Of a DNA stretch of 64,000 bases, positions 21,637-48,891 are shown piece after piece; positions within the stretch are counted from its first letter, which is position 1; every line of letters starts with the position of its first letter. The DNA lies in assembly GCF_001636345.1 (NCBI RefSeq), contig NZ_KV440945.1, positions 1,332,975 to 1,396,974 on the forward strand, written 5' to 3'. Source of the stretch: Cytobacillus gottheilii (lineage in GTDB: Bacteria; Bacillota; Bacilli; Bacillales; Cytobacillaceae). A program made the position numbers and the translations under genes. The notes beneath the pieces were generated by a model. The model ran no database searches. It was not told where the DNA came from and saw nothing but the letters and a program-made list of their open reading frames with translations.

Positions 21637-21712
21637 TTATCAGATATTCTTCTGAAAGGGTTGCATTGTAAAGAAGTGTTTATATTATAATAGATTTAGG
21701 TAGTTGGGGGGT

Positions 21713-21767: not shown

Positions 21768-22484
21768 ATGAATAAAAAAGTACTTGTCGTCGATGATGAA
21801 CAATCAATTGTTACTTTGCTGCAATATAATCTACAGCAAGCTGGATATGACGTTTTAACTGCAGAGGATGGAGAATTGGGGATGGAGCTTGCTATTTCAG
21901 AAAAACCAGACTTAATTGTTCTTGATTTAATGCTTCCAAAAATGGATGGAATTGAAGTATGCAAACAGCTTAGACAGCAAAAGATAGAAGTGCCTATTTT
22001 AATGCTGACGGCAAAGGATGATGAATTTGATAAAGTACTAGGACTTGAATTAGGCGCTGATGATTATATGACGAAGCCATTTAGTCCCCGTGAGGTTGTT
22101 GCGCGTGTAAAAGCTATTTTGCGCAGAATACAAACGCAGCCGGAATATGATGTAAGCCAAGCAGAATCTCAGGATTATATTCAAATTGCAGAGCTGAAAA
22201 TTTATCCGGATCGATACGAAGCTTTTGCTGATGAAGAGCTTTTAGAATTAACACCAAAGGAATTTGAGCTTCTGCTTTATCTAGGCAGACATAAAGGCAG
22301 GGTATTAACAAGAGATCAGCTTTTAAGTGCAGTTTGGAACTATGATTTTGCAGGGGATACACGCATCGTCGATGTTCACATCAGCCATCTGCGAGAAAAG
22401 ATTGAACATGATACGAAAAAGCCTGTTTATATTAAAACGATCCGCGGACTAGGATATAAACTGGAGGAACCTAAGAAAGAATGA
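21768..22484 (+). CDS. phoP: Phosphate response regulator PhoP
   Basis: 238 residues, OmpR family. Receiver domain about 3-117, with the phosphorylated Asp 53 in LIVLDLMLPKMDG, acidic DDE near 10 and the conserved Lys in MTKPFSPREVVARV. The winged-helix output domain spans about 135-235 (LTPKEFELLLYLGRHKGRVL; DVHISHLREKIE). It is phosphorylated by PhoR under phosphate starvation and binds TTnACA direct repeats. AUG overlaps: the last bases are shared with phoR (ATGA). Confidence 0.96.
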   Translation: MNKKVLVVDDEQSIVTLLQYNLQQAGYDVLTAEDGELGMELAISEKPDLIVLDLMLPKMDGIEVCKQLRQQKIEVPILMLTAKDDEFDKVLGLELGADDYMTKPFSPREVVARVKAILRRIQTQPEYDVSQAESQDYIQIAELKIYPDRYEAFADEELLELTPKEFELLLYLGRHKGRVLTRDQLLSAVWNYDFAGDTRIVDVHISHLREKIEHDTKKPVYIKTIRGLGYKLEEPKKE

Positions 22485-24253
22485 TTAATTTCAGATCGAG
22501 GCTTTTGTTTGCCCTTATTACCTTAATAATCGCTGTGTTAATTTTTCTGGGTATTTTATTAGGGCAGCTTTTTAAAACGAATTCTTTACAGTCTTTTGAT
22601 GAACGCTTGCAAAATGAGAGTGATCTAGTAAAAAATTATGTCGATGACCAAGGCGGTGTCAACGGGCTTAACGACGGAAAAGTAAAAGAAATGGCTGATG
22701 CATTAAATGTCCAGATTACAATTGCTAATGTTAATGGAAGTATTGTACTTGAGAGCCATGACAAAAACAATGTAAGCAGGCATGAAGCCATTGTTGAGGA
22801 AATAACAAATGGAGTCTACAGCTCAGAAGATTTCCTGGAGATTCAAGGCGGTTTTGACCTGAATTATTATTGGCGTCCGATAGGTTCAAGTGAAGATCCT
22901 GATGGTTACATCATTTTAAGCACAGCAATCACACAAGTACAAGATGCCTACAGGCAAATCTGGTGGACATTGACCATTAGTCTTGGAGCGGCGCTCTTTG
23001 TCATTATTCTCCTTGTAACTCGTATTACGTCTAATTATACACAGCCGATCGAGTCAGCTACAAAAGTAGCAATTGAACTGGCAAAAGGGAATTATAGGGC
23101 TAGAACATATGAAGATCCTTTGAATGAGACAAGTATGTTAAGTAATTCTATCAATATTTTAGCTAGAAATCTGCAGGAAATGGTGAAATCTCAAGAGATT
23201 CAGCAAGATCGAATTGAGACATTAATCGAAAACATGGGCAGCGGTCTTGTTCTTATTGATAGCAAAGGCTATATCAATTTAATTAACAGATCATATAAAG
23301 AGATTTTCGAAGCAAAATCTTCTTTTTACTTACATAAGCTGTATTATGATGTGATGAATAATAATGAGTTAACATCCATGGTAGAAGAAGTATTTATGAC
23401 CGAACATAAAGTGCGCAAACAGCTTATGATTCCTGTTGGAATTGAAAGAAAGCATTTCGATGTTTCAGGAGTGCCTATTATTGGTACGAATAATGTCTGG
23501 AAAGGCGTCTTGCTTGTCTTTCATGATATTACAGAGTTAAAGAAACTCGAGCAAATGAGGAAAGACTTTGTTGCAAATGTTTCACATGAACTGAAAACTC
23601 CTATTACATCTATCAAAGGGTTTTCAGAGACTTTGCTGGACGGTGCAATGGAAGATAAGCAGGCATTAACCGACTTCCTTAAAATCATTTTGCAGGAAAG
23701 CGATCGTTTGCAATCCCTTATTCAGGACCTGCTAGATTTATCAAAAATTGAGCAGCAGGGCTTTAGTTTGTCTAAAGAAATATTCGATATACAAGTGATG
23801 ATGAAAGAAGTTTTGGCTATTATGCATGGGAAATTGGAAGAAAAGGATATTTCTCTTTTCTTTGAGAGGCAGGAAGCAGCCGTCTTAATGGAAGGAGATC
23901 CATCTAGGCTAAAACAGGTAATCATCAATTTATTATCAAATGCTATTTCCTATACGCCCCAAGGCGGAAGAGTTTCTTTGTCGGTATCAGAAGGGCCAAA
24001 AAAGGTACATGTTAAGGTTCAGGATACAGGTATTGGAATTGACCAAGAGGAAATTCCGCGGATTTTTGAACGTTTTTATCGAGTCGATAAAGCAAGAAGC
24101 AGAAATTCAGGCGGAACCGGATTAGGTCTGGCAATTGTAAAGCATATTGTGGAAGCTCATAAGGGGAAAATTTCTGTTACAAGTGATGTAGGTGAAGGCA
24201 CAGCCTTTCATATTGAACTTCCAAAAGGAAAAATTGAAGACCATATTCAATAG
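22481..24253 (+). CDS. phoR: Phosphate sensor histidine kinase PhoR
   Basis: 590 residues. Membrane segment 1 about 8-29; extracytoplasmic sensing part about 30-160; membrane segment 2 about 163-186 (LGAALFVIILLVTRIT); HAMP about 187-240; PAS about 245-355; HisKA with His 369 in FVANVSHELKTPITS; ATP-binding domain with the N box NLLSNAISYTPQGG and the G boxes DTGIGI and GGTGLGLAI. It overlaps phoP by 4 bases (ATGA). It autophosphorylates under phosphate limitation and passes the phosphate to PhoP. Confidence 0.95.
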   Translation: MINFRSRLLFALITLIIAVLIFLGILLGQLFKTNSLQSFDERLQNESDLVKNYVDDQGGVNGLNDGKVKEMADALNVQITIANVNGSIVLESHDKNNVSRHEAIVEEITNGVYSSEDFLEIQGGFDLNYYWRPIGSSEDPDGYIILSTAITQVQDAYRQIWWTLTISLGAALFVIILLVTRITSNYTQPIESATKVAIELAKGNYRARTYEDPLNETSMLSNSINILARNLQEMVKSQEIQQDRIETLIENMGSGLVLIDSKGYINLINRSYKEIFEAKSSFYLHKLYYDVMNNNELTSMVEEVFMTEHKVRKQLMIPVGIERKHFDVSGVPIIGTNNVWKGVLLVFHDITELKKLEQMRKDFVANVSHELKTPITSIKGFSETLLDGAMEDKQALTDFLKIILQESDRLQSLIQDLLDLSKIEQQGFSLSKEIFDIQVMMKEVLAIMHGKLEEKDISLFFERQEAAVLMEGDPSRLKQVIINLLSNAISYTPQGGRVSLSVSEGPKKVHVKVQDTGIGIDQEEIPRIFERFYRVDKARSRNSGGTGLGLAIVKHIVEAHKGKISVTSDVGEGTAFHIELPKGKIEDHIQ

Positions 24254-24282: not shown

Positions 24283-24336
24283 TTTACATTATATTTACAG
24301 TCTTTTTATTTTCTATTTACAATAGACCTTTATAAT
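24283..24336 (+). promoter_or_regulatory. PhoP-activated promoter downstream of phoR
   Basis: TTTACA occurs at 24283, 24294 and 24316, with a degenerate TTTATT at 24305: four half-boxes in an exact 11-base period. A perfect -10 TATAAT follows at 24331-24336. This places the boxes at about -60 to -22, the position of PhoP core boxes (TTnACA repeats) in activated promoters. No -35 is present, as expected for an activator-dependent promoter. Only 30 bases downstream of the predicted start lies a strong terminator. Confidence 0.75.
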
Positions 24337-24342
24337 GATTAG

Positions 24343-24409
24343 GGAAACCCCTTCATCCAAGGTACCAAAGAAAGGAGAAAGCTTACCCCGCTTTCTCCTT
24401 TTCTTTTTG
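24343..24409 (+). ncRNA. Candidate PhoP-dependent small RNA (about 67 nt)
   Basis: The predicted start (about 7 bases after TATAAT) and the terminator at 24371-24408 define an RNA of about 67 nucleotides with no ATG frame. Its 5' part can form small hairpins (GGGAAACCC; CCTT-CATCC-AAGG). The terminator hairpin has a C-rich loop, TTACCCC, flanked by CTTTCTCC, which is complementary to ribosome binding sites; this is typical of Gram-positive regulatory RNAs. The alternative is an attenuated leader for hflKC. Confidence 0.5.
24371..24408 (+). terminator. Terminator after phoR / of candidate small RNA
   Basis: AAAGGAGAAAGC (24371-24382), loop TTACCCC, GCTTTCTCCTTT (24390-24401), then TTCTTTTTG: a perfect 12-bp stem. 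It ends phoR transcription and also any transcript from the PhoP-type promoter. Confidence 0.93.
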
Positions 24410-24606
24410 CTTTTTTAAGATCTTTTCTTCATAGATGTTAAAAAACATATGAACTTCGTTGTTTTTAGTCATTCTCTGTCTTCTTGTCTTTCCTCCACTT
24501 TCCGAATATTCAATTGTATATTTATTGAATTGTAAATCTTATGAAACTTTTCTGTATTCAGCTCGTAATAAAGTTACAGACAAAGAAACAGGGAAGGGGA
24601 GTATAA

Positions 24607-41289: not shown

Positions 41290-41412
41290 TTGAGGAAAAG
41301 AAGAAGCACCCGCTTCTCACCTGATTGACGCAAATAGCAGTTGGCAGGTTTTACGTGAACATTTTTTGTTTATATACGTAAGTGTGGGTGTTTTCATCCG
41401 CACTTTTTTTAT
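41290..41412 (+). ncRNA. L20 leader (ribosomal protein autoregulation)
   Basis: The leader contains AAGCACCCGCTTCTCACC, CAGTTGGCAGGTTTTACGTG and a terminator GTGTGGGTG-TTTT-CATCCGCAC with a T run (41380-41410), matching the Firmicute L20 leader before infC-rpmI-rplT. L20 binds this RNA, which mimics its 23S rRNA site, and favours termination when in excess. Confidence 0.9.
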
Positions 41413-41568
41413 TGCCCATTTAGCTTTGATCCGGTGCAGCTAGCAGCTTCTTTCAGAATTCGACAGTATGGTGGAGCTAAAGAATACGTCTTGCCCCAAC
41501 AAAGCTACTGATCAAATCAATCTTGACCCAAACATTGTGTTCCGATTAAACCTTGGAGGTGTCTAACT

Positions 41569-48602: not shown

Positions 48603-48624
48603 TAACAACAAATTATATGTAAAA

Positions 48625-48891
48625 AACAATGACGGAGAAAAGTAGCCTGCTCAAACTTTTTTAGGGAGAAAACACCTTGACTGCAAGTGTTTTTAAAAGG
48701 GATGCAAGTGAACATTCACCTCCAGAGTTGGCATCGGGACCATAGCAATCTGGCTATGTAAAGATGCACCGGCATCTGGCCGTTATCTCAATGAAGCGAA
48801 TACATATACGCGGGTTCCCCTGTTTACATGTATTAAAAAGGGTGGTACCGCGAACCAAAACCTCGTCCCTTTATAGGGATTAGGTTTTTTT
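48625..48891 (+). ncRNA. T-box riboswitch of pheST
   Basis: T-box AGGGTGGTACCGCG (48838-48851) followed by a terminator (48857-48891, CCTCGTCCC-TTTA-TAGGGATTAGG and a T run). In stem I, GTGAACATTCACC places TTC (48715-48717) followed by A as the phenylalanine specifier. Uncharged tRNA-Phe promotes readthrough. Confidence 0.92.

Follow-up and report, generated by a model that had tools for sequence, protein, structure and literature searches.

The 64,000-nucleotide stretch of Cytobacillus gottheilii DNA analysed here, hereafter called the window, lies in a genome of 4.59 Mb and contains the genes mdh (named by eye), phoP, phoR, hflK, hflC and polA in this order. No NCBIfam model scores above its cut-off for the PhoP regulator. 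Behind phoR lies a compact unit in which four PhoP-type boxes and a -10 element precede a predicted small RNA, the latter ending at an intrinsic terminator that is also that of phoPR (table 1). The predicted RNA matches no family of Rfam 15 at gathering score; the only two Rfam matches that the window contains at this score are a ribosomal protein L20 leader (41292-41415, plus strand) and a T-box leader (48620-48873, plus strand).

Table 1. Features of the phoPR locus, in coordinates of the window
Feature	Position	Strand	Basis or remark
Possible phoP -10 (TATAAT)	21686..21691	+	Predicted from sequence
Candidate pairing site GGUAGUUGGGGGGU in phoP leader, near predicted mRNA start	21699..21712	+	Duplex about -19 kcal/mol, not better than shuffles
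phoP, response regulator	21768..22484	+	Named from place and kinship
phoR, PhoR/PnpS-type histidine kinase	22481..24253	+	NCBIfam PnpS, 513.5 bits (cut-off 400)
Four PhoP-type boxes, 11-bp period	24283..24321	+	Sequence; shuffle score; relatives
-10 element TATAAT	24331..24336	+	9 bp past box 4
Predicted small RNA, about 67 nt, putative ends	24343..24409	+	Relatives and covariance model matches behind phoR
Conserved 5' motif AACCCCUUCAUCCAAGG, proposed pairing region	24346..24362	+	Alignment of 29; exact-motif loci
Intrinsic terminator, loop TTACCCC, common to phoPR	24371..24408	+	Sequence, folding, covariation

Promoter and terminator of the predicted RNA

Promoters activated by PhoP in Bacillus carry repeated TTnACA-like boxes with an 11-bp period upstream of the -10 element, and this arrangement is found at the window locus, where TTTACA is read at 24283-24288, 24294-24299 and 24316-24321 and a degenerate TTTATT at 24305-24310, the 11-base period being kept throughout. 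The four boxes score 22 out of 24, a value that was never reached when the 95 nt upstream were dinucleotide-shuffled 1000 times. Among 74 non-redundant promoters, which were taken from carriers of the exact 5' motif without pre-filtering for box-like motifs, the four-box score is 21.4 at period 11 versus 14.7-15.8 at periods 8-10 and 12-14, and it amounts to at least 19 in 73 of them. The distance from the boxes to the -10 element is 9 in 55 of 75 promoters of a set that had been pre-filtered for box-like motifs. The -10 element of the window is absent from the list produced by a generic sigma-70 scan, because no -35 hexamer lies at its distance. We consider activation of the RNA by PhoP very probable, and predict PhoP control in this genome from the promoter architecture.

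The stem of the terminator comprises 12 Watson-Crick pairs between 24371-24382 and 24390-24401, with the loop at 24383-24389 and a T-rich tract extending to 24408; a terminator-finding tool gives 13 pairs by including a G-U pair at the foot. The region 24342-24412 folds at -25.3 kcal/mol as compared with a shuffle mean of -13.8 kcal/mol (z -4.5), mostly on account of the terminator. Among 17 distinct aligned rows the terminator covaries, 7 of its 14 pairs having changed on both sides and 97.9% of the cells forming pairs. The ACCCC of its loop is kept in the group of the window and lost in several other groups, and the weak hairpin CCUU/AAGG within the 5' motif shows no two-sided changes in the alignment. 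From about 24343 to the T-tract there is no ATG, GTG or TTG, the nearest ATG (24335) overlapping the -10 element. Direct reading therefore bears out the boxes, the -10 element, the 12-bp terminator and the lack of a start codon ahead of it, all of which the sequence-only reading had reported.

Conservation and distribution in Bacillales

BLAST with the intergenic region yields a match in 34 of the 36 genus members, counting the window's genome itself; the main match always spans approximately 24347-24401 and in many genomes begins at the first box. Of the two remaining genomes, one (G026) has neither boxes nor RNA behind phoR and the other (G034) has no PhoP at E<=1e-80. With respect to the nearest relative (G017), identity is 65/67 positions in the transcript and 50/54 in the boxes plus -10 element; outside the unit it is 18/29 before the boxes and 95/180 past the terminator.

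Boxes with the 11-bp period, the 5' motif ACCCCUUCAUCCAAGG and the covarying terminator are conserved across Bacillales relatives. A covariance model built from the transcript alone, hereafter abbreviated as R1, finds matches at E<=0.001 in 167 of 397 genomes from the order. The RNA adjoins phoR in the best 30 R1 matches that were made into loci (three of these genomes also served to build R1) and in 34 of 40 lower-ranking matches (33-66 bits, hand-picked across families), the other six being unrelated terminators. In a class-wide sample R1 matches 18 of 200 genomes, of which the 9 outside the order are weak-scoring candidates.

Among named genomes, the exact 17-nt motif occurs in at least 118 loci, and phoR lies directly upstream in 106 of the 118 matches listed. 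Carriers of the exact motif behind phoR include B. mojavensis, B. velezensis, B. atrophaeus, B. pumilus and B. paralicheniformis, as well as Priestia, Metabacillus, Rossellomorea, Peribacillus, Anoxybacillus and Aeribacillus; B. subtilis 168 itself is not among the matches listed. The 12 listed loci that have no phoR within 1500 bp upstream consist of 9 from other organisms, without boxes, and 3 from Bacillales, two of which lie near the end of their locus (L078, L117) while in the third (L094) phoR went undetected. Some records with the motif are probably mislabelled: L154, labelled as a Bacteroidetes MAG, resembles the Neobacillus locus L067, and L101 (Pseudomonas sp. ISL-84) and L077 (Paenibacillus sp. 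FSL R5-0490) probably belong to the genus of the window.

Diverged copies were sought in 20 genomes without a good R1 match, 15 of which had a 3' end that could be read over about 257 nt. By eye, 10 of the 15 (G036, G039, G040, G060, G116, G057, G076, G052, G053 and G037) contain an RNA of this kind and G038 a more diverged one behind phoR; no RNA is seen in this stretch of G059, G050, G043 and G051, of which G043 has box-like repeats. The five further genomes comprise one with the usual RNA (G176), one with a diverged RNA (G041), an unclear case (G381) and two in which no RNA is seen behind phoR (G026, G048). R1 misses diverged copies. Moreover, the boxes and RNA of G032 (L253/L294; motif CCCCTTCATAACAG) are separated from phoR by about 590 nt rather than the usual 100 or so, so that a short stretch behind phoR can miss the RNA. 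In G041 (L313) and G038 (L346) the boxes are followed by a diverged motif, AACGGTTTCATCAAT, and, ahead of the terminator, by a longer stretch containing CATCCCC; this may be a distant form of the RNA. G051 (L333/L336) has two phoP-like genes in tandem and no such RNA in the stretch shown.

By its sequence, the unit lies behind the last gene of the operon, ends at the terminator of the operon and has a predicted promoter of its own, like other small RNAs made from the 3' end of an operon by a separate promoter. We consider the existence of the RNA very probable from its conservation. The PhoP-driven, terminated transcript predicted by the sequence-only reading thus gains strong support across Bacillales; that reading had suggested a conservation search and a covariance model as checks, and the search found boxes and hairpin kept behind phoR in relatives, while the model yielded the matches adjoining phoR described above.

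Complementarity to the phoP leader

When the 5' part of the RNA was set against the beginnings of seven genes of the neighbourhood, in 19 to 91 species depending on the gene and the comparison, only phoP stood out. Leaders were used only if the locus held phoP, which left 80 species in the 90-nt set and 106 in the 170-nt set before the removal of redundancy. With non-redundant 90-nt phoP leaders and dinucleotide shuffles the mean z was -2.16, and P<=0.05 was reached in 33 of 55 leaders (35 of 55 with other shuffles), as compared with mean z values of -0.05 to -0.56 for the six control genes, together giving 16 of 211 at P<=0.05. When 170-nt leaders and variant lineages were taken, 36 of 75 phoP leaders had P<=0.05 (mean z -1.64). 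The sequence-only reading had proposed that the RNA could pair with ribosome binding sites. In this general form the proposal does not hold, the leaders of mdh, phoR, hflK, hflC, polA and mutM being near chance; what the comparisons support is a single partner, the phoP leader, at a place upstream of its Shine-Dalgarno sequence.

A typical leader site consists of UUGGAUG, a short spacer and AGGGGU(U)AAU, with about 22 nt between its end and the start codon in most cases. When transcription starts were predicted by a crude -10 rule, the site started upstream of them or no more than 8 nt away in 39 of 48 leaders. The invariant core of the RNA pairs with 71 leaders at a mean of -15.0 kcal/mol, a value that 200 shuffled cores all failed to reach; in the leaders of six genomes that do not carry the RNA the core energies range from -6.7 to -14.2 kcal/mol (mean about -10), but with only six non-carriers a joint loss of RNA and leader complementarity is unproven. 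The change in opening of the Shine-Dalgarno sequence upon pairing was too small to use (0.034 versus 0.014 for random sites; 47 leaders), and folding gave no clear indication of the sign of regulation.

The complementarity is not uniform. In the window itself, the best duplex with the phoP leader is no better than shuffles (z -0.27; -0.07), this leader being rich in G, and several leaders of the same genus are near chance in the 170-nt test. Near chance are also the leaders of Anoxybacillus/Aeribacillus type (L098, L102, L147, L158), and little complementarity to phoP is found in six leaders of the f7/f37 families (L241-L246) and in G116, G076, G052 and G039, all of which have the RNA. A separate complementarity exists within the long transcript of some loci (L017, L026, L250, L251): GGATGAAG, at or just behind the phoR stop and before the PhoP boxes, is complementary to CUUCAUCC of the RNA, and the long phoPR mRNA could therefore also fold back there.

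At the level of sequence, the variable pairing part of the RNA co-varies with the phoP leader. Leaders pair more strongly with the RNA of their own genome than with RNAs reassigned from others (0 of 5000 permutations, and 2 of 5000 with shorter leaders, in tests uncorrected for kinship). In the same uncorrected tests the advantage disappeared when only the part 3' of CAUCC was swapped (1 of 5000) and was kept when the 5' part was swapped (3138 of 5000), which agrees with the finding that the flank 5' of the CCCC block shows no co-variation with the leader. Single lineages illustrate the pattern. In G015, GUAAAACCCCUU faces AAGGGGUUUUAC, and none of the 71 other RNAs pairs as well as its own; CAUCU in the RNA of G045 corresponds to AGAUG in its leader, but the best duplex computed there uses a second CAUCU farther along; G057 has, by eye, CCCCAAC against GUUGGGG. 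From G031 to G007 the pair GCCAUAG/AUAUGGC becomes ACCAUAG/AUAUGGU, in whole duplexes that do not beat shuffles (z -1.08 and 0.45). There are also counterexamples, since the own RNA of G024 pairs worse with its leader than 71 of 71 others, and that of G018 is outdone by 70 of 71 when short leaders are used, but has P 0.03 with the long leader.

Complements of the seed elsewhere in genomes were also counted. The genome of the window contains 6 occurrences of the pattern GRTGRRGGGGT (14 for the reversed pattern as control), one of them being the RNA itself. Two of the five others lie inside reading frames (L231, L233), one is near none (L230), one falls 12 nt inside a possible frame of 108 amino acids (L234) and one lies 31-49 nt before possible starts (L232). 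In 16 genomes the pattern TTGGATGn1-8GGGGT has 55 matches versus 13 for its reversal; 30 of the 55 were given a locus, namely 9 at the RNA's own complement, 1 at phoP, 14 overlapping long open frames and 6 elsewhere, among which only L284 has a possible start.

Pairing with the mRNA of its own operon, which characterizes autoregulatory RNAs from 3' untranslated regions, is thus found across species by computation, and we regard it as likely that the RNA pairs with phoP mRNA in most lineages.

A possible feedback arm of PhoPR and its relation to known systems

In B. subtilis, PhoP boxes situated between phoR and the terminator boost phoPR autoregulation (Salzberg 2015, as cited by Devine 2018, PMC6232261) by a mechanism that the passage in the latter review calls "as yet unknown"; the boxes of the window occupy the same place. 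For the B. subtilis boxes, binding of PhoP~P and phosphate-dependent expression are reported in that passage. We propose that phosphate starvation would generate PhoP~P, which would drive the RNA from its own promoter behind phoR; the 5' half of the RNA would then pair with the phoP mRNA leader ahead of the ribosome-binding site, in many species close to where the message is predicted to begin. The RNA would in this way act on phoPR mRNA as an RNA feedback arm of PhoPR, probably with a positive sign, by shielding the 5' end of the mRNA. The location of the site, upstream of the Shine-Dalgarno sequence and near the predicted 5' end, fits such protection, and shielding would account for the reported boost of autoregulation by the boxes. 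That the unit encodes an autoregulatory small RNA which has a PhoP promoter to itself and acts, probably positively, on phoPR mRNA appears reasonably probable from the sequence comparisons; the positive net effect, taken by itself, is slightly favoured. The complete scheme, in which a small RNA made under PhoP~P throughout Bacillales covers the 5' end of phoPR mRNA, raises PhoPR and constitutes the missing mechanism of the boxes, is tentative and has close to an even chance of being right.

Pairing with the phoP leader could instead be repressive, for instance by recruiting RNase III or by hindering ribosome standby. Repression is the outcome for the autoregulatory 3' RNAs OppZ and CarZ in what is described of them (PMC7398697) and for the pairing within icaR mRNA (PMC3868564), yet the pairing site considered here lies upstream of the Shine-Dalgarno sequence and the B. 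subtilis boxes boost phoPR autoregulation according to the passage of PMC6232261, so that we judge a repressive action unlikely. Another reading keeps the complementarity and dispenses with a dedicated RNA. Since the common terminator would also end the long phoPR mRNA, this mRNA would carry the same motif in its 3' untranslated region; intra-mRNA pairing with its own leader is therefore a serious rival, with the separate RNA as a by-product or competitor. The complementarity of the phoP leader and the icaR precedent (PMC3868564) suit this arrangement, but boxes and -10 element are conserved at a fixed distance just ahead of the motif, which speaks for a separate transcript, and we hold a mainly cis role to be improbable.

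The boxes might also be no more than a PhoP-binding enhancer or an element of DNA architecture, the hairpin being simply the phoPR terminator and no functional RNA existing. Boxes at this place do matter in B. subtilis, and the passage of Devine 2018 (PMC6232261) mentions no RNA; against this, the 5' motif belongs to the best-conserved parts of the region, as the identities of transcript and downstream sequence given above indicate, and is complementary to the phoP leader, which makes the enhancer reading very improbable. Practically negligible, finally, is the probability that the unit is an attenuator or leader for downstream hflK or polA, or a small-protein gene. The unit does lie upstream of hflK in the window's genome, and the sequence-only reading had considered it as an attenuator for hflKC; this idea fails because the unit is linked to phoR: it keeps its place there irrespective of whether the next gene is hflK or polA, and the distance to that gene varies from about 130 to more than 700 nt. 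Constant linkage to a downstream gene was not found, and hflK scored near chance as a pairing partner. AAGGAG resembles a Shine-Dalgarno sequence in many relatives, but a small-protein gene was rejected, as the window transcript contains no start codon and none is conserved in the alignment.

Were the preferred reading of a positively acting RNA on phoPR mRNA true, the Gram-positive Pho regulon would gain a small-RNA arm, the regulator would itself make the autoregulatory RNA by which it is controlled, and a two-component system would have positive feedback through an RNA. In Bacillus, where the phosphate response serves as a model for two-component systems, a conserved RNA starting at the boxes and complementary to the phoP leader would offer a concrete mechanism of phoPR amplification.

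RsaE/RoxS, C-rich small RNAs of Firmicutes, share with the present RNA their short length and single-stranded C-rich motifs; they address many ribosome-binding sites, whereas here one dedicated partner is supported and there is no Rfam match at gathering score. In enterobacteria, the response regulator OmpR activates OmrA/OmrB, which pair with the regulator's own mRNA, ompR; they differ from the present case in the RNA, in their separate locus and in their negative sign. FasX of Streptococcus pairs at the 5' end of ska mRNA and stabilizes it, thus providing a model for the proposed positive effect, although RNA and target are unrelated.

The sequence-only reading had suspected a small RNA not described before. 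Boxes at this position are already known in B. subtilis (PMC6232261); an RNA arising behind phoR was not found in the openly available papers searched, and a 15-base piece of the motif, tried in three forms, gave no match in the literature search. A bare transcript behind phoR may already be listed among the B. subtilis tiling-array segments. As far as searched, RNAs from a 3' end acting on their own operon are a known kind, whereas a PhoP-driven one acting on phoP is new.

Closest in position are the B. subtilis boxes themselves, which share place, regulator and the reported boost of phoPR autoregulation; the passage describing them names no RNA (PMC6232261), while here the predicted RNA would start at the boxes. 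Mcr7 of Mycobacterium tuberculosis, described as a PhoP-dependent non-coding RNA modulating the TAT secretion system (PMC4038636), has in common with our RNA the tie to a regulator named PhoP. OppZ and CarZ of Vibrio cholerae likewise come from the 3' end of an operon and pair with their own transcript, but they are reported to be cut out by RNase E and to repress (PMC7398697), whereas the present RNA would have its own regulator-driven promoter and probably activate. The icaR mRNA of Staphylococcus aureus offers a further likeness, a C-rich motif near its 3' end pairing with the 5' leader of the same mRNA; that pairing, as described, occurs within one mRNA, at the Shine-Dalgarno sequence, and is repressive (PMC3868564), whereas the pairing proposed here would lie upstream of the Shine-Dalgarno sequence and involve an RNA from a separate promoter.
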